A DNA stretch of 64,000 nucleotides from Armatimonadota bacterium. Its GTDB lineage: Bacteria; Armatimonadota; HRBIN16. The translations under genes were made by a program, and so were the position numbers. This document shows, piece by piece, positions 3,813 to 44,103 of the stretch (within the stretch, counting starts at the first letter, position 1; the number at the start of each line of letters is the position of its first letter). The notes under the pieces are model-generated. The model worked only from the letters and a program-made list of their open reading frames with translations. It ran no database searches and had not been told where the DNA came from. The stretch lies in assembly GCA_026003195.1 (NCBI GenBank), contig BPGU01000001.1:543398-607397 (forward strand). The letters are read 5' to 3'.

Positions 3813-6182
3813 ATGCCTGTCATTGAGATAACCACACCTCGTGGTCGTACGGTACGCATCGAAGTTGACCGCATCCCGAGCGCAGCAGACATAGACCATA
3901 TTGCGGCTGAAATCGACAGGCAGTATGATGCACAGCAGAAGCCTGCACCACAGCCTGCACCAGCACAACCACGCAAGCGGGGACTGCTGGAGCGGGCAGT
4001 GCACTGGTTCATGAATACACCCGTGGGGCGGTGGCTGTCAGCTTCCACTTCACCAATCGCGCCAGGTGCACCTGTTGCACGGCAGGTAACACAGCCTTCC
4101 ACTCCTTCATCCGCTAAACCAGTGACCGATCCAGTCGCCGAAGCCAATCGCCTGGTGCAGGCAGGCATGAGCAGGAAGGAAGCGGCGAAGCGTGTTGCTG
4201 AACGCCTGCAAGCACCGCCTGAGCCGCAGGCCACGCTTGGCTACTTCTGGAAGGCGTTGACCGATCCTGCAAGCCTTGCCGCACAGCCGGATGAGAAGCG
4301 AAAGGAGCCGCCACTATTCTACCGCCTGCTTCATCTGTTGAACGCGCCAATCTATGCACTATCCGCTTCATCTATTGAGAGAATCCCAGAACCACAACGC
4401 CCGCAGCGGTTCAAGGGCAGGGATTGGGCGTCCCTGTATGGTGAGCAACCAACCGCAGGCACATGGTTGGAAGCACAGTATCCTGCCCTGCCCGCCTGGC
4501 TTCGCGCACCAGCCGGGCTTACGCTGGACTATCTTGCTTCAATGCTATACACAGCTGGACTCGGCAAGACGATGAAGGCGGCAGGAGAAGCGGGCAAGGC
4601 AATCCCTGCCGTGCGTGAAGCTTCGGCAGCGGCGCAGTTCAACCTGCTGAAACTGCTGCATCCGACTGCAGCGAAGACTACCGAACGGCTGGCGCGTATA
4701 TCTGAGTCCACTACGCTTCCCATTCAGGAGAGACTACAGATACTCAGACATGGCCTACAATCTGCAGATGAACTTCTCTCCGAGTCGACGACGCTGGACA
4801 AGCTGATGAAGGCATACTGGCCGCAGGTGTCGGTCATCGATCCAGACCTGATCGATGCAGCGCAGTTGAAGCAAGCACAAACGCATTTGCTGGATTGGAT
4901 ATCACGTACGTTAGGATCGACGGCAGCGTCGAACATTGAAGAAGCGCTGCGTCAACCGAACTGGGGACAGCGAGTAGAGAGTCTGAAGCAAGCTATACAA
5001 AAGTTCCGCGAGTATGCAGAGCACGGCGCCGGTAGTCAATTAGGAGAGGATATCGATATGGCGTTCGCCGGTGAGATGGATTACCTGCTTCCGCAGTATC
5101 ATGTAGGACTCGTTGAAGCACTGCGCCGATTGAGACAGACATCCCCCAGCGTGTGGGAGAAGCTGATGTCGCACTGGAAGCGGTCAATGACCGTGCTGAA
5201 CCTGCCCGAGGGCGCCATGCGTAACTTCTGGGGCAACTTCTTAGCGCAGTTCCTGGCTGGGCAGCCCGTCTCTCTACGAAGCATCCTGTTTGGTAAGCCG
5301 ATGAAGGAGCTGATTGATGAAGCGTTCGCCGGCGGATTGACACGCAAGAAGGACATCGGGGAGTTCTCGCAATGGGCTGATAAGGCAGCGCGTATCTATA
5401 GCGGGGCGGACAAGCTTGCGGCAGCAATACTGTCGCGCATCACGGGCAAGCCTGCCGGTGAGTTCATGATCAGCGAGTCGTTCACACTGCCTGAGACGAT
5501 AGACAAGTTACAACGGTGGGGACTCATACCGTTTGCAAGCTGGCCTGCGTGGATTGTGCCCAGACTGTGGGCTGGACTGAAGTCCACGCCGTGGAGATGG
5601 GCAACGGCAGGCAGGGCAATCACAAGCAAGGACGAACAGGGCGAATACAAGGTAGAACCGTCTACGCTTACGTACAAGATAGCGCCTGGTAAAGGCATCA
5701 GCATTGAACCGCTACTGCCGTTATCACCTTACATGTTGAGCAGTGATCGTGGTGAAGCACCGGATGTGCTGGTGCAGTGGTTCTTGCCCAGCCTGTGGCG
5801 CGACGTGGTGCAGGCACTGCAGGGTGAAGGTGCGACGCCACGAGCGTTGACCTGGTCGCCGCCATTGGAAGCCATACAGGACGCTTCGCCGGATGAACTG
5901 CGTGATATAGCGCGTAAGGGCGCATACATAGACGCCGCCACAACTCTCATCAACAGGTTGACACCGCCGGCGTTGTGGAACCTGCTGCGCCTGGCGATGC
6001 CTTCCATGTTCGCAGACCATCCCACCAATAGATTGACCGCTGAAGACTACCTGCTTCGGTTACTGGGAGTGCCGGTGCGCTCGGTATCTCCAATCGGTGA
6101 AGACATCTGGGAGCAGAAGGACGTCGCAAGGCAAATCAGGATGAGAGCAACAGCGGCAGCACGCAGGAACCTGAAGCAGTAG
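3813..6182 (+). CDS. Large prophage virion protein (gp16-like position)
   Basis: This is a 789-residue protein and the last gene of the prophage operon. Residues 1-35 (VIEITTPRGRTVRIEVDRIP, then an Ala/Asp helix) resemble the short N-terminal signature seen on many phage structural proteins, 'I.I..P.G...' followed by an acidic helix. A Pro/Ala linker follows, then a long helical body with several amphipathic or hydrophobic helices (for example around YLASMLYTAGLGKTM and IPFASWPAWIVPRLWAGL). I see no lysozyme or transglycosylase catalytic signature. Size, final position and hydrophobic helices fit a DNA-ejection protein; specific function unproven. Confidence 0.5.
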   Translation: MPVIEITTPRGRTVRIEVDRIPSAADIDHIAAEIDRQYDAQQKPAPQPAPAQPRKRGLLERAVHWFMNTPVGRWLSASTSPIAPGAPVARQVTQPSTPSSAKPVTDPVAEANRLVQAGMSRKEAAKRVAERLQAPPEPQATLGYFWKALTDPASLAAQPDEKRKEPPLFYRLLHLLNAPIYALSASSIERIPEPQRPQRFKGRDWASLYGEQPTAGTWLEAQYPALPAWLRAPAGLTLDYLASMLYTAGLGKTMKAAGEAGKAIPAVREASAAAQFNLLKLLHPTAAKTTERLARISESTTLPIQERLQILRHGLQSADELLSESTTLDKLMKAYWPQVSVIDPDLIDAAQLKQAQTHLLDWISRTLGSTAASNIEEALRQPNWGQRVESLKQAIQKFREYAEHGAGSQLGEDIDMAFAGEMDYLLPQYHVGLVEALRRLRQTSPSVWEKLMSHWKRSMTVLNLPEGAMRNFWGNFLAQFLAGQPVSLRSILFGKPMKELIDEAFAGGLTRKKDIGEFSQWADKAARIYSGADKLAAAILSRITGKPAGEFMISESFTLPETIDKLQRWGLIPFASWPAWIVPRLWAGLKSTPWRWATAGRAITSKDEQGEYKVEPSTLTYKIAPGKGISIEPLLPLSPYMLSSDRGEAPDVLVQWFLPSLWRDVVQALQGEGATPRALTWSPPLEAIQDASPDELRDIARKGAYIDAATTLINRLTPPALWNLLRLAMPSMFADHPTNRLTAEDYLLRLLGVPVRSVSPIGEDIWEQKDVARQIRMRATAAARRNLKQ

Positions 6183-28299: not shown

Positions 28300-30372
28300 A
28301 TGGGTATGGGAAAACATCATTTCTACTTCGCACATCAGTTTCGCTGGGAACAAGGCAAAGGTTTCTACCTCAGCCTCGAAAACAGTACCGACGAACCTGT
28401 ATGCCGCCTGAACACTCTGCGGTTGATACTGGGAGTAGGGGACGGGCGGGACTGGCGATTTCTCTCTCCGCAAGTGATTTGGCAGACTGGAAAGCGCTAC
28501 CACTTACGCGCCGAGATTCAGCCCGATGTGGCAAGCCTGTGGCTCGATGGTCAACTGGTTGACCGCAAGGGGGGGGGCTTTGCCTCGGCAGAAGGCCAGC
28601 TGGTGGTCGGCGAAGTCCCTCACTGGGCAAGCGCAGAGACGGACTACCACCTCGCCCCCTGCGAGGTACGATGCACCATCGGAGGACGCCTCACTGTCTA
28701 TCCCGTTGGAGGTCCCCGCTTGCGTTGGAGTGAGCCTCTGCTGCACTTCAACCCCCTTCATTTCTGGGGGCTGGAGGGTAGCTGGGCTACTCACACCGTG
28801 GAGGCTTCTGTGCAGCTCCCTCTGGCTATCGAGGTCTCTTTCGAACTGCGTCTCATCCCCGACTGGCGTCCCTACGTGCCCTACATCGACCGCTACGGTC
28901 AGTGCCGATATGCCGATTTCGCCCATAAGGTACGCAGTGACGATGACCTCAGGCGTCAGTGGCAGGAGGAGCAACACCTTCTGTCACGCTGGGGCATTCC
29001 CACCGACTTAGACCAGTATGGCGGATATCGGCGGGCAGGCTGGCGTGCCGAACGCACGGGGTTCTATCGCCTGGAACAGCGCGACGGATACTGGTGGCTG
29101 GTGACGCCCGAGGGCAACCCTTGCTTCTACATGGGCGTTTGCAGTGTGCCCATGGACCTCTGGGAGTATACACCCGTGTCGGAGCGCGAAGAGGTGTTCG
29201 AGTGGCTGCCGCCGCAGGACGGCGAGTATGCAGGCGTGTGGGCGACAGACGCCTGGGGTGAAGGGCTGGGCACACGCTACGTGAGCATGCACGCCGTGAA
29301 CCTGATACGACGGTTCGGCAAGGACTGGCGACAGAGCACCCTCGATCTGGCACGAAGACGGCTACGCACGTGGGCGTTCGCGGGCGTGGGCAAATGGGGT
29401 TATGTGCCCGAAACACCATACTTTCCCGTGTTGAACCGCAACGGAGTGCCCAACCTTGCAGAGCACCCCGACATCTTTGACCCTGAAGTGGCAAGGCGTT
29501 TCGAGCAGCACCTGCGTAGCCAGATCGCTCCTCACCGCCAGAGCAGCTGGGTAGTTGGCTGGTCGGTAGGGAACGAGGAGAGCGAGCTGATCCGTCGCAA
29601 GGAGGTACGCGATATTCTTGCCACTCCCTCTGCCCCCCCTGCCAAACGGGCGATGATAGAACACCTGCTGCACAGCAAGTATAACGGTAGCGTGCAGCGA
29701 CTGGCGCAGGCATGGAACCTGTCCGCCCGTGACCTGGAAGCCATTTGCCGTGCCTCTATCACTGCTATCCCAGATGATGATGTAGAGAACATGCGCCTGT
29801 TTTACATGGACAAATATCATGAGTGGCTCTATCGGACTGTCAAACGCATCGACCCCAATCATCTCTACTTCGGTTCGTGGATCTATCCGTATGCATGGGA
29901 CAGTGAGCAGGACTGGTTCTTCATGGCGCGCCATGTTGATGTACTGGGGTACGACTACTACCATCTCTTCTTCTCGCCCGAACTGATTACACGTCTGCTG
30001 CAGCGCACGCGAAAACCTGTGCTGTGTGGCGAGTTCACCTTTGCCACCTGGGAGGATGGACGGCGCGGATACGGTGCCTTTATGGGCTGTTCCGCGAAGG
30101 ACGAGCGAGAGGCAGGAGAATGGTATACTCGCTGGGTACGTGATGCCGCCCGGCATCCCCTGTGTGTGGGCGGACTATGGTTCCAGTATCGCGACCAGCC
30201 GCTAACAGGTAGAGGACCTGGTAGAGGCAAAAAACTGTTCATCGGCGAGCATAGCCCCATCGGCATCGTGGAGTTCACCGACCGCCCCAAGTGGGAACTG
30301 GTTCGGATTATGCGTGATGCCAATCTGCAGGCGCCTCGCTGGCGACTACAGGCGATGCGAAGAGGAGGGTGA
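28300..30372 (+). CDS. GH50-like (agarase-related) glycoside hydrolase, first tandem copy
   Basis: This is a roughly 690-residue protein without a signal peptide. The N-terminal 120 residues form a beta-sandwich-like module (GFYLSLEN, LRLILGVGDG). The barrel begins at GYWWLVTPEGNPCFYMGVCS, the segment that opens GH50 catalytic domains; Glu in VGNEE (acid/base) and Glu in LCGEFTFA (nucleophile) fit clan GH-A. ATG 28300 has GGAG 5 bases upstream and aligns with the paralog; GTG 28246 would add 18 residues without a ribosome site. Substrate unknown; GH50 is named from motifs only. Confidence 0.72.
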   Translation: MGMGKHHFYFAHQFRWEQGKGFYLSLENSTDEPVCRLNTLRLILGVGDGRDWRFLSPQVIWQTGKRYHLRAEIQPDVASLWLDGQLVDRKGGGFASAEGQLVVGEVPHWASAETDYHLAPCEVRCTIGGRLTVYPVGGPRLRWSEPLLHFNPLHFWGLEGSWATHTVEASVQLPLAIEVSFELRLIPDWRPYVPYIDRYGQCRYADFAHKVRSDDDLRRQWQEEQHLLSRWGIPTDLDQYGGYRRAGWRAERTGFYRLEQRDGYWWLVTPEGNPCFYMGVCSVPMDLWEYTPVSEREEVFEWLPPQDGEYAGVWATDAWGEGLGTRYVSMHAVNLIRRFGKDWRQSTLDLARRRLRTWAFAGVGKWGYVPETPYFPVLNRNGVPNLAEHPDIFDPEVARRFEQHLRSQIAPHRQSSWVVGWSVGNEESELIRRKEVRDILATPSAPPAKRAMIEHLLHSKYNGSVQRLAQAWNLSARDLEAICRASITAIPDDDVENMRLFYMDKYHEWLYRTVKRIDPNHLYFGSWIYPYAWDSEQDWFFMARHVDVLGYDYYHLFFSPELITRLLQRTRKPVLCGEFTFATWEDGRRGYGAFMGCSAKDEREAGEWYTRWVRDAARHPLCVGGLWFQYRDQPLTGRGPGRGKKLFIGEHSPIGIVEFTDRPKWELVRIMRDANLQAPRWRLQAMRRGG

Positions 30373-38257: not shown

Positions 38258-38860
38258 ATGGACGCGCGAGTGTGGGAGTGGCGAGTGGCAACCGGAGAAC
38301 ATCCCCGGCAAGAGGGCGAACAACAGCTGATCGAACGCTGTCGCGCAGGCGACATGGAGGCATTCGGCACGCTGTGGCAGCAACACCGCACAGCGGTCTT
38401 TCGCAGTATTCTGGGCATCGTGGGCAATCCGCAGGACGCCGAAGACCTCACGCAAGACGCCTTCTTGCGTGCCTATCGAGCTCTGGACAGCTTTCGCGGC
38501 GAAGCACAACTGCGCACATGGCTCATCCGTATCGGCGTGCATCTGGCGATAGACCACGTGAAGCGTAAAAAGGCGCATCCTGAAGTATCACTGGATTGGG
38601 ACGTGGGCGGTGGGTATGCAGATATCGACCCGCACGCCGCAGCAGAACGCAACGAACTGCGCGAAACGGTGCGCAAGGCGATAGATGCCCTGCCTCCCCA
38701 CCATCGCGCGGTCATTGTGTTGCGAGATATGGAAGGAATGGACTATTCAGAGATGGCGCAGGCGTTAGGGTGCAGTGTGGGTAGCGTGAAACTGCGCCTG
38801 TTCCGTGCCCGACGACTGCTCAAGCAACGACTGGAAGTGCTTCTGGGGGGATCACGATGA
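38258..38860 (+). CDS. ECF RNA polymerase sigma factor
   Basis: The 200-residue protein has region 2 (LWQQHRTAVFRSILGI, DAEDLTQDAFLRAYRALDSF, LRTWLIRIGVHLAIDHVKR) and region 4 (LPPHHRAVIVLRDMEGMDYSEMAQALG, then SVGSVKLRLFRARRLLKQRL). It would direct polymerase to stress promoters with -35 and -10 elements read by these regions. AAGGAG precedes ATG 38258. It overlaps the anti-sigma gene by 4 bases (ATGA), the usual coupling for stoichiometric production. Confidence 0.95.
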   Translation: MDARVWEWRVATGEHPRQEGEQQLIERCRAGDMEAFGTLWQQHRTAVFRSILGIVGNPQDAEDLTQDAFLRAYRALDSFRGEAQLRTWLIRIGVHLAIDHVKRKKAHPEVSLDWDVGGGYADIDPHAAAERNELRETVRKAIDALPPHHRAVIVLRDMEGMDYSEMAQALGCSVGSVKLRLFRARRLLKQRLEVLLGGSR

Positions 38861-39606
38861 GACGGCTCCTGTGCCGATGGGTAGAATACTACCTCGCTCT
38901 GAGCGAGGACGACATAGAACGTGGTTTGCCCGGCTGGGTGCGTCGACACCTGCAGGTGTGTGCGCACTGTCAGGCGGAGGCGCGCGTTTACCGCCGTACG
39001 CGCGAGGTGGTGCGCCAGTATGCCAGCCTGCTACCCGATGCGCCTGCCGGTGGTTGGCAGCCGTTGCAGGTGCGCGGAGAAGCGAAGCAGCGCGGTTTTC
39101 CGTTGCAGATAGCGCTGGTTCCTGTGGCGGTGGCGGTAGTCGCGTGGATTGGCTTGGCGATGTGGCAGAGGGTTTCGCCGCCCACCGATGACGGGCAAAC
39201 CGCTCCTGCGGTCGTGCAGAACGTCATCCCGCCGCATCTGGACGCAGCCATGCCGGAGAAGAATCCTGCTGCTCCAACGACTATTCCTTCCCAGAAAGGC
39301 GGTAAGCCCAAGCAGGAACCGTCCAGGCAGCCCGCTGCACCGGAACAAGCCAAACCTGCTCCTGCGCCGCGTCAAACGCCTTCGACACCGGTGCATCGCC
39401 CGCCGAAGCGCATCCTGATTGCGGCTCAGCCCGTGGCGCAGAACGTGCAGGAAACGCTAGCTCCACCCGTTGCGGAGTCGTTGCCCGAACCGGAAGTGCC
39501 TGTACAGCCGGTGCTGGCGGAAGCGTCTCCTCCTTCGACACACCATATACCGGAAGCTTTTGTGGTGCAACCAGCCTATGCCGCTGCGGCAGGTGGAGTG
39601 GAGTAA
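38857..39606 (+). CDS. Zinc-binding anti-sigma factor with long Pro-rich tail
   Basis: The 249-residue protein has the zf-HC2 motif HLQVCAHC near residue 30, then one membrane span (LVPVAVAVVAWIGLAMWQ, residues about 88-105) and an extracytoplasmic Pro/Ala/Gln-rich tail of 140 residues with low complexity. It would hold the upstream sigma factor in the cytoplasm until an envelope signal acts on the tail. Its ATG overlaps the sigma stop. The next gene, an HtrA-like protein, is 13 bases downstream. Confidence 0.85.
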   Translation: MRRLLCRWVEYYLALSEDDIERGLPGWVRRHLQVCAHCQAEARVYRRTREVVRQYASLLPDAPAGGWQPLQVRGEAKQRGFPLQIALVPVAVAVVAWIGLAMWQRVSPPTDDGQTAPAVVQNVIPPHLDAAMPEKNPAAPTTIPSQKGGKPKQEPSRQPAAPEQAKPAPAPRQTPSTPVHRPPKRILIAAQPVAQNVQETLAPPVAESLPEPEVPVQPVLAEASPPSTHHIPEAFVVQPAYAAAAGGVE

Positions 39607-39619
39607 AGGGGGACGTGCC

Positions 39620-40759
39620 ATGCGGTTGCTGTTATCCTTTCTGTGGCTGCTTCTCATGACCAGTACCGTCTGGGCACAAGGTGTGCTGGACTCTTTGGAG
39701 CGCGAGATGACCACGCTGGCGCGTAAAGTGCAGAACGCGGTGGTCGCCGTGGAAGGAGGCGCACTGGCACCTCCGGGCTCCTCTCCCTCCGCTTTCTGGA
39801 CAAGACCCGAGAACGAACCGACACGCCGGATGCTGGAAACGTTTCGGTTGTTTAACCTGCCCAATCCCATCACCCGCAAGGGCAGTGGTTTTATCGTGGA
39901 CAGGGAGTGGGTACTGACCAGCGCGGATGTGGTACGGGGAGCGGAGCAGTGCGTGGTGCGCCTTGCAGACGGGAGCAAGCTGATGGGCAGGGTGGTGAGT
40001 ATCGATGATGTGACCAATCTGGCAATGGTGAAAGTACCTGCCTTGTCTCTGCCCCCTTTGCCGCTGGGCGACTCGGACAGGATAGAGCAGGGTAACCTGG
40101 TGCTTTGTATGGGCACGCTGGGTGGTTACGAACGGTCACTTGCGTTGTGTGTGGTCGCAGGGAAGGAGCGCACGGGAGTCATCGGTCAACAGCAGTTCCT
40201 CTCGAACCTGATACAGATTTCTGGCGCGATTGGGGCAGGAAGCAGTGGGGCGCCGGTCGTGAATTCGCGAGGAGAAGTTGTTGGGGTCATCGTCGCGAGT
40301 ATTGCGCCAGGCATGCTTTTTCGCCCGCCCGATACAGCGGATAGCAGGCGAGCCGGCACCACCGCGCCCTCTCTGGGCACTGCAGTAGACATGTCGTTGC
40401 TGGGAACAACAGGCGGCGCACTGGCGGTGCCGATTAACGATGTCAAAGCAGTGCTGGACGATATGCGGGCGGGCAGATTGCGCCGTCCCTTCCTGGGCAT
40501 CATGCCTGCGGACCGCGATGGTGCGGAGGGTGCGGAAGTGGTGCGCGTAGTGCCTAATAGTCCCGCAGCCCGGGCAGGCATCCGTCTGGGAGATGTGATC
40601 CTGTCCCTGAACAATGTGCCTGTGCGGCGCGCTGCCGATGTCACCAGCATCTTGCGGCGGATGAAACCCGGCGATAAGATACAGATAGATATCCAGCGTG
40701 GCTCACAACGGCTGCGGATCACCGTCCCACTCGGTGAGAGGGCAAATACACCGCCATGA
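39620..40759 (+). CDS. HtrA/DegP-like PDZ protein with degenerate protease site
   Basis: The 379-residue protein has a signal peptide (MRLLLSFLWLLLMTSTVWAQ), a trypsin-like domain and one PDZ domain (RPFLGIMPADRDGAEG..., VPNSPAARAGIRLGDVIL). Residues equivalent to the HtrA triad are changed: the His of 'NAHVV' is Asp 103 in TSADVVRG, the Asp of 'DLAVLK' is Asn 133 in TNLAMVKV; only Ser 209 in GSSGAPV is kept. It is therefore probably not a serine protease. ATG 39620 gives the signal peptide. It sits between the anti-sigma and thioredoxin-fold genes and overlaps the latter by 4 bases. Confidence 0.85.
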   Translation: MRLLLSFLWLLLMTSTVWAQGVLDSLEREMTTLARKVQNAVVAVEGGALAPPGSSPSAFWTRPENEPTRRMLETFRLFNLPNPITRKGSGFIVDREWVLTSADVVRGAEQCVVRLADGSKLMGRVVSIDDVTNLAMVKVPALSLPPLPLGDSDRIEQGNLVLCMGTLGGYERSLALCVVAGKERTGVIGQQQFLSNLIQISGAIGAGSSGAPVVNSRGEVVGVIVASIAPGMLFRPPDTADSRRAGTTAPSLGTAVDMSLLGTTGGALAVPINDVKAVLDDMRAGRLRRPFLGIMPADRDGAEGAEVVRVVPNSPAARAGIRLGDVILSLNNVPVRRAADVTSILRRMKPGDKIQIDIQRGSQRLRITVPLGERANTPP

Positions 40760-42455: not shown

Positions 42456-42929
42456 ATGCGCACAGCAGAGAGGCTGTGGCGCCAACGGGTTTGCGCAGTC
42501 TTCCGCAGGAGCGGGGTCAGTTGCAACGATATCGAAGACCTCTGTCAAGAGGTTGCCATATCCTATTTCCGAATTAGGGGAGTAGCACCATGGGACGACA
42601 TCCCCGCTCAACCCTATCTGGTAGCACACCTTCCGACTGGTGTTATCGTGACATGTCCACTACAAGGCAGCGACTTCACGACACCGGACCAGTGGTGCCA
42701 ACGTGTGGTGAATAGCGACTGCGATGGATGGCTGGGCTGCCGTGCTGATTACCTGCGCCAGCGCAACAAGTGCTGGTGGGATATGGAGACGGGGTACTAT
42801 TTGGTCACCTGTGGACAGTGGCGACCTTGGGATTGCTGTTACGAGCAAGAGGCGACTCCTGAACCTCCTTGCCCACGCAACCGATACCAGATATACTGCG
42901 TACCGAACACACCGCAGCAGTGCCCGTAG
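42456..42929 (+). CDS. Cysteine-rich protein with ECF sigma region 2-like N-terminus
   Basis: This 157-residue protein contains 14 Cys. Its first 42 residues read LWRQRVCAVFRRSGVSCN and DIEDLCQEVAISYFRI, matching region 2.1-2.2 of this window's own sigma factor (LWQQHRTAVFR, DAEDLTQDAF). Regions 2.4 and 4 are absent. The rest is Cys/Trp/Pro-rich (CDGWLGCRADYLRQRNKCWW, GYYLVTCGQWRPWDCCYEQ). Its C-terminal 50 residues resemble the tail of the prepilin two genes on. There is no signal peptide. AAGGAGG precedes ATG 42456. Not a recognised family; a fusion or decayed sigma is suggested. Confidence 0.6.
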   Translation: MRTAERLWRQRVCAVFRRSGVSCNDIEDLCQEVAISYFRIRGVAPWDDIPAQPYLVAHLPTGVIVTCPLQGSDFTTPDQWCQRVVNSDCDGWLGCRADYLRQRNKCWWDMETGYYLVTCGQWRPWDCCYEQEATPEPPCPRNRYQIYCVPNTPQQCP

Positions 42930-42949
42930 TTTAGGAGAGGAAAGGGTAT

Positions 42950-43429
42950 ATGAAAGGTATCACGAACTCGCGCAGTATAGAGGGAGGATTATGGGCGCTG
43001 CTTGCGGGCATGGTCGGGCAGTACGGGGGTTACATTGCCTTGCGATTGTCCCAGATCCTCAAGGATTGGCTGATTGCGGTGGTCTCTCATCAGCCACGTG
43101 CCTTTGCCGAAGTGCCGGTAGGCTTCGTTCTGGTGCCCCCTCCTCATATCTGGAATGTCGCAGCCGTTGTAGGAGTAGTCATCGGCTTGGTAGCCTACTG
43201 GATACATACCTCACCTTTAGACTCCTCGGCTCGAAAGCGAAGAAAGCGGTGGTTCAATGTCGCCGTCGTTGCTGCAGGAATACTTTTGGGGCGTGGATTG
43301 AATTTCATCTCTGACTGGCACATTCTGCTGATGGCTTTGGATGACCTCGTCTCGCTGGTCGTTGCTTTATGGCTTACGTGGACGCTCATCGGTTTCACTG
43401 ATATGTTGACTCGGAGGCTGGATAGATGA
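42950..43429 (+). CDS. Four-span membrane protein between a Cys-rich protein and a prepilin
   Basis: The 159-residue protein has about four hydrophobic spans (LWALLAGMVGQYGGYIALRL, WNVAAVVGVVIGLVAYWI, WFNVAVVAAGILLGRGLNF, LVSLVVALWLTWTLIGF) and a basic linker SSARKRRKR. AGGAGAGGAAAGGG is upstream of ATG 42950, and it overlaps the prepilin gene by 4 bases. No family is recognised. Operon position suggests a role in export, processing or anchoring of its neighbours. Confidence 0.6.
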   Translation: MKGITNSRSIEGGLWALLAGMVGQYGGYIALRLSQILKDWLIAVVSHQPRAFAEVPVGFVLVPPPHIWNVAAVVGVVIGLVAYWIHTSPLDSSARKRRKRWFNVAVVAAGILLGRGLNFISDWHILLMALDDLVSLVVALWLTWTLIGFTDMLTRRLDR

Positions 43430-44103
43430 ATCGCGCAGCATTTACTCTTCTGGAACTGCTCATAGTGATAGCCATCATCGCTGGTCTCGCGGCTCTCCTG
43501 CTGTCAGTACTGGCAAGGACGAGACAGCATTCGCTTTCCGTCCCATGCACAAGTAACCTGCGTCAGCTTCAGCTCGCATGGAAGATATACGTTGAAGACT
43601 ACGAGGGCGAGTACCCGTCGATGATCGGTCAGATATTCCCTTACGTACGCAATAAGCAAGTTTTTGTGTGTCCTCTTGATCATTTCGGGGGAGCTTCCCC
43701 GCACGCTACCCGCCGCCTGTCCAGTCCTGTGAGCTACTTCTATCTGCTGAGCGATGACGTCAACTCCCCAAGGCACATTGAGATATTGCGTCGGTACGAC
43801 GCCAACCATACAGTGTTTTACTGCGTTCTGCACGGCACGCCATGCGGAGCATCGGGACTGGGTTTTGCCAAGAACTCCTATGAAGGCAAGGTTCTTGGCG
43901 TGAAAGTGGATGGCAGTGTGCGTACCAAACAGGTAGGGTTTCGTTGCTTCCGACTGCCAGATGGCACTTACCTAGTGAACCGCCCCCCTTGGGATTACGC
44001 AAGCGACGTGCCTTGTCCCCAAGAGCAGCTACGCATGTTCTGCGGAGTGCCAGACGAGTATACACAGGAGATAGAGTGTCCTTGTGGGCAAGTACGTCGG
44101 TAA
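43426..44103 (+). CDS. DUF1559-type prepilin-like protein with Cys/Pro tail
   Basis: The 225-residue protein begins MNRAAFTLLELLIVIAIIAGL, a type IV pilin-like leader with the F-T-L-L-E site cleaved and N-methylated by prepilin peptidase. It continues like DUF1559 proteins (TSNLRQLQLAWKIYVEDYEG, GVKVDGSVRTKQ as the late H...DG region). After residue 170 it has a tail, GTYLVNRPPWDY, VPCPQEQLRMFCGVP, shared with the Cys-rich protein at 42456. That tail is absent from the other DUF1559 protein at 58233. Surface or secretion-linked fibre; exact role unknown. Confidence 0.75.
   Translation: MNRAAFTLLELLIVIAIIAGLAALLLSVLARTRQHSLSVPCTSNLRQLQLAWKIYVEDYEGEYPSMIGQIFPYVRNKQVFVCPLDHFGGASPHATRRLSSPVSYFYLLSDDVNSPRHIEILRRYDANHTVFYCVLHGTPCGASGLGFAKNSYEGKVLGVKVDGSVRTKQVGFRCFRLPDGTYLVNRPPWDYASDVPCPQEQLRMFCGVPDEYTQEIECPCGQVRR

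Follow-up and report, generated by a model that had tools for sequence, protein, structure and literature searches.

A decayed four-gene cassette in an Armatimonadota genome and a probable poly-G switch before the Cys-rich protein of related copies

Three open reading frames lie in tandem on the forward strand of the window, the 64,000-nucleotide stretch of Armatimonadota DNA that was analyzed. Gene 1 (42456-42929) encodes 157 amino acids including 14 Cys residues, as the first-pass annotation had stated, gene 2 (42950-43429) encodes a hydrophobic, multi-span membrane protein of 159 amino acids, and gene 3 (43426-44103) encodes a type IV prepilin-like protein of 225 amino acids; the four-base overlap that had been noticed between genes 2 and 3 was confirmed as ATGA. 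A genome search recovered gene 1 as a single copy in its own genome, and it matched no Pfam family. Gene 2 had been described as a four-span protein, and hydropathy analysis gave three clear spans in addition to a weaker first one. Homology searches found gene 2 in genome G003 (60% identity over residues 7-157) and in G006 (89% identity), where the copy carries one TGA.

In two sister species of the same genus (G003 and G004), the two parts of gene 1, residues 1-60 and residues 58-157, matched separate places 0.5-0.8 kb apart. The first part is an ECF-like sigma remnant (42456..42632, forward strand, the first ∼59 codons) that matched the start of true sigma ORFs in both species with E ∼1e-22, tblastn giving 67% identity to G003:C9:60898-61077 and 59% to G004:C422:12683-12874, and this homology upholds the earlier description of the N-terminus as sigma-like. 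The second part, the Cys-rich body (42633..42929, forward strand), holds 11 of the 14 Cys residues, has neither a signal peptide nor a poly-G tract, and showed 75-77% identity to stand-alone Cys-rich genes of G003 and G004 and could be placed in the alignment of its family (A1). The G004 counterpart consists of a full sigma gene of 190 amino acids followed by a separate Cys-rich coding region downstream, and relative to it the window copy has lost ∼540 bp, corresponding to sigma regions 2.3-4 and the signal peptide of the Cys-rich protein, with an in-frame fusion of what remains. The junction (42622..42640, no strand) falls between ...YLVAHL and PTGVIVTC... of the protein, with an approximate breakpoint, and was located by protein and DNA comparison of the window with L003/L044 (G004) and L002/L043 (G003); it was read from the translated comparisons, and a global DNA alignment misplaces the sigma part. 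With a threshold of E 1, gene 1 matched none of the sigma families, and regions 2 and 4 were not both present. Judged from these alignments, a deletion has fused two neighboring genes that are separate in relatives, and gene 1 is the scar it left. Because pN was 0.116 and pS was 0.712 between the window body and that of G004, the body has evolved mostly as a protein; the deletion in the window copy could be recent.

The first-pass annotation had read gene 1 as a genuine sigma-like/Cys-rich hybrid whose C-terminal Cys/Pro tail is common to the prepilin, with a single partner or cross-linking through the shared tails. No break interrupts the fused ORF, the body is conserved, and in the window cassette alone the best pairwise alignment of the two tails, scoring 49, was equaled by only 13 of 2000 shuffles. 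The sigma and Cys-rich genes are nevertheless separate in relatives, a profile comparison of the Cys-rich and prepilin families detected no similarity (probability 0.2%), and orthologous and paralogous tail pairs in five other cassettes scored at chance. Moreover, the prepilin's "WD...PCP" is the C-terminal W-x-x-x-[TS]-D motif of its own family (alignment A2). The tails thus did not hold up as homologous, a common partner or cross-linking is left unsupported by the profiles and the other cassettes, and we regard the hybrid reading as very improbable. The deletion accounts for the odd gene of the window, and annotators should not take fused ORFs of this kind for new domain architectures.

Gene 3 had been called a DUF1559 prepilin. 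Its prepilin N-terminus was substantiated by a TIGR02532 score of 22.1 bits (cutoff 16.3), which indicates a class III signal with the N-terminal methylation motif, and the score to PF07963 was 21.0 bits (cutoff 21.2); the DUF1559 assignment itself was not, as gene 3 gave no match to PF07596, a model matched by 2 of 9 members of this prepilin family. In the family searches, gene 3 was matched at its prepilin N-terminus only. The protein is 70% identical to its counterpart in G003 (family alignment A2). An AlphaFold model of gene 3 (mean pLDDT 68) shows a long N-terminal helix followed by strands, and a fold search with the prepilin model returned nothing below E 0.2, with the pilin 3sok at rank 22 (E 1.6).

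The candidate cassette and its co-occurrence in relatives were borne out and extended to four genes. By comparison across genomes, the intact cassette consists of a sigma factor, a Cys-rich protein, a membrane protein, and a prepilin, of which the window appears to hold a degraded copy. This four-gene unit is repeated within the genus, in several copies and two gene orders, many of them broken. A phylum-wide profile search found the Cys-rich family both in the genus of the window and in another family, in its genera g86 and g89, for which the named records are Fimbriimonadales/Armatimonadetes metagenome genomes; the cassette recurs in these two genera as well. Locus L130 comprises two tandem cassettes and L165 one, all in the order sigma, Cys-rich, membrane, prepilin, and a membrane protein occupies the place of gene 2 in these and other loci. 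Weak matches occurred in other families (G082 and G086), where a Cys-rich ORF lies near a prepilin and no sigma match was found at these loci. The Cys-rich family matched nothing above cutoff in Pfam and NCBIfam, and a structure model of the Cys-rich protein was uninformative (pLDDT 40). At the syntenic locus of G006, flanked by the same two aldo/keto reductases, the cassette has decayed further than in the window: the membrane gene carries the TGA, and little of the prepilin is left. The Cys-rich gene of G003 (L043) carries an in-frame TGA exactly at a conserved Cys codon; selenocysteine was considered at this position and set aside, a single change in a decaying copy being the simpler reading.

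At the junction of signal peptide and Cys-rich body, a poly-G tract of 6-15 residues was present in 19 of 21 readable copies (it was missing from L054 and L124), and 13 of the 21 carried G9 or longer. The tract lengths were 6, 9, 6, 7, 10, 10, 9, 7, 10, and 7 in the window's own genus and 15, 10, 12, 11, 11, 9, 9, 8, and 10 elsewhere. The tract begins 90-105 nt past the start of the signal in all copies except L043 and L044, for which the start is uncertain. Such runs are rare in the 4.58-Mb genome that contains the window (about 24 of G9 or longer), and at this rate the chance of at least 12 of 19 sites carrying G9+ is near 1e-50, a value that is only indicative because the copies are related. 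In the AT-rich locus L165, the G10 tract stands alone.

Intact copies have a signal ORF that overlaps the sigma ORF at the latter's 3' end; it lies in the +1 frame relative to the sigma ORF in all but one of the copies showing both, and the sigma ORF remains open up to the tract in nearly all copies. The body is in the frame of the signal (ON) in L045, L046, L058, L059, L122a, L123, and L129, in the frame of the sigma ORF in L043, L044, L050, L056, L125, and L165, and in neither frame in L051, L122b, and L169; the out-of-frame bodies are mostly still long and Cys-rich. Closely related copies differ in this respect. L056, L058, and L059 are 93-96% identical over the 300 nt upstream of the tract, with G7 (ON) in L058, G10 (ON) in L059, and G9 (sigma frame) in L056. 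In L122, the 100 nt upstream of the tract are identical between the two tandem copies, which carry G15 (ON) and G10 (OFF), and L123 (G12, ON) compares with L125 (G11, sigma frame). Tract lengths were compared between copies, with one assembly per species, and some of the one-base differences could be assembly errors. On this sequence evidence, tract length decides whether the body is read with the signal, with the sigma ORF, or with neither.

The same comparisons (L056/L058/L059, L122, and L123/L125) gave 90-100% identity in the signal region and mostly 58-67% in the bodies, with body identity falling to about 58-67% only beyond the first ∼60 nt. Prepilins of the L056/L058/L059 cassettes are 81-83% identical as proteins. 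Synonymous sites were saturated or nearly so in most pairs of tandem or paralogous bodies examined by dN/dS. A constant export signal and putative switch thus precede diversified bodies. Since the bodies diverge while the signal and tract stay constant, switchable surface presentation is probable. A surface or filament-associated role for the Cys-rich protein is suggested by its signal peptide and many Cys residues together with its diversification and its pairing with a prepilin.

The reading we consider probable is slipped-strand poly-G phase variation of an exported Cys-rich protein, the window holding a degraded, switchless copy of the four-gene cassette. Slipped-strand mispairing at the tract would alter the number of G residues and hence the reading frame; with the body in the signal frame, the Cys-rich protein would be exported (ON), whereas in the other two frames the sigma ORF would be translated into a sigma-Cys fusion, or there would be no product (OFF). 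The cassette would probably serve to display, at the cell surface and perhaps on a filament built from the prepilin, Cys-rich proteins that diversify and can be switched, and its own sigma factor probably controls it. Slipped-strand mispairing is proposed by analogy with the gonococcal pilC tract discussed below, and we infer the reversibility of switching in living cells, the surface location, and the roles of prepilin and sigma factor. In the window copy, the ∼540-bp deletion removed signal and tract along with the larger part of the sigma gene, locking the fusion. This copy can no longer switch, and its fused product is probably inert.

A variant in which the switch has three states, with the body either exported, attached as a C-terminal domain that alters the activity of the sigma factor, or read in neither frame, seems unlikely; were it true, one G run would toggle both a surface protein and a regulator of its own operon. 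We also considered selection acting on the frame of the sigma-Cys fusion and rejected it; synonymous recoding gave a weak signal. The main rival to phase variation is programmed slippage, in which RNA polymerase or the ribosome slips at the tract, so that a single DNA sequence yields exported protein and sigma-Cys fusion alike in every cell. Poly-G is a plausible slip site, and the +1 position of the signal ORF in all copies but one and the sigma frame that is open to the tract in nearly all would suit such a mechanism. We disfavor it, and hold it to be improbable, because tract lengths fall into different classes modulo 3, and do so even where cassettes are nearly identical; in addition, the open sigma frame over the signal exceeded the synonymous-recoding expectation weakly (P product ∼0.012, from copies that are not independent). 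Plain decay would instead make the out-of-frame copies frameshifted pseudogenes of unstable cassettes, with the G run as a mutation-prone spot. The window deletion, the TGA in G003, and the stops and deletions in G006, L050, L053, L055, and L057 fit this picture, and as several cassettes are decaying through deletions and in-frame stops, some out-of-frame copies may indeed be pseudogenes. Decay accounts for some copies but not for the tract, up to 15 G, being retained at one place across genera with widely diverged bodies; several out-of-frame bodies are also uninterrupted, and body pN/pS is low between the window, G003, and G004, so that decay is doubtful as the general explanation.

Other homopolymeric tracts were observed. 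A conserved element of ∼85 bp, ...TTGACAC-Gn-ACAGAGTAGAAT... with n=7-11, lies upstream of secreted proteins at G000:C1:920376, C4:252657, C4:297892, and C4:508581, at three sites in G006:C2, and in G009:C23 (L191-L198); its poly-G is the spacer of sigma-70-like -35/-10 boxes and a likely switch of promoter strength. In the window's own genome, G9-G13 tracts occur at or near the signal/body junction of other secreted proteins (L171, L182, L185, L184, and L190), the body of L184 (G13) being out of frame, and a paralogous set of secreted proteins that have NGDxDGD dockerin-like repeats (L172, L173, L177, and L180) bears C10-C11 tracts at the N-terminus. The longest run seen in the genome is one of 18 G (L186, G000:C3:903867-903884), where no clear ORF was identified, and within the window a G9 run (28569-28577) lies inside a 673-aa open frame. 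In L166 (G086), a distant Cys-rich gene close to a prepilin is preceded, ∼22 bp before its start, by a G10 at position 5809, possibly a transcription or translation-start switch. The poly-G tracts of the window's own genome that lie at the starts of secreted proteins or form promoter-like spacers suggest that the lineage uses poly-G switches broadly.

Several known systems resemble parts of the cassette. The parent sigma proteins share with ECF sigma factors a match to Sigma70 region 4 (Sigma70_r4_2, PF08281, in 8 of 8 cassettes tested), but their region 2 has diverged beyond what Pfam recognizes, most are extended at the C-terminus by a long stretch that overlaps the next gene, and the window remnant matches no sigma model. 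Elsewhere in the window (38258-40759), three genes in a row resemble an RpoE/anti-sigma/HtrA stress module: one for an ECF sigma, one for a 249-aa protein whose N-terminus contains Cys, and one for a trypsin/PDZ (DegP-like) protease. Like DUF1559 / H-X9-DG prepilins, the cassette prepilins have a class III N-terminus and an LHG...DG[ST] motif toward the C-terminus, whereas the window prepilin matched neither PF07596 nor any H-X9-DG model at E below 1. The Verru_Chthon cassette (TIGR02596 and others) is likewise a gene cassette with a prepilin, and its protein D model weakly matches the N-terminus, but the window protein scored 16.2 bits against a curated cutoff of 70 for TIGR02596, which places it outside that family.

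Documentation of poly-G phase variation is strongest for host-associated pathogens, and our search of a literature library found no paper joining phase variation with Armatimonadota or Armatimonadetes with a homopolymeric tract. Two marks of contingency genes, a 5' homopolymer tract within the coding region and frame-setting length differences between close copies, were both found here. If the proposed phase variation is true, a conserved multi-copy switch, with its constant export signal ahead of diversified Cys-rich bodies, would indicate that phages or predators exert pressure on the surface structures of environmental bacteria. The closest parallel is pilC of Neisseria gonorrhoeae, which, in the account given by PMC5354566 where it cites Jonsson et al. 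1991, is turned on and off by frameshift at a homo-guanine tract in the signal-peptide region. Both systems have a G tract at the signal peptide of a pilus-associated protein, the pilus link of the cassette being presumptive. They differ in that PilC is unrelated to the small Cys-rich family, in that the signal ORF of the cassette overlaps an upstream sigma gene so that one frame would give a sigma fusion, in the divergence of the cassette bodies behind a constant signal, and in the hosts, which for the cassette are Armatimonadota of the hot-spring type.
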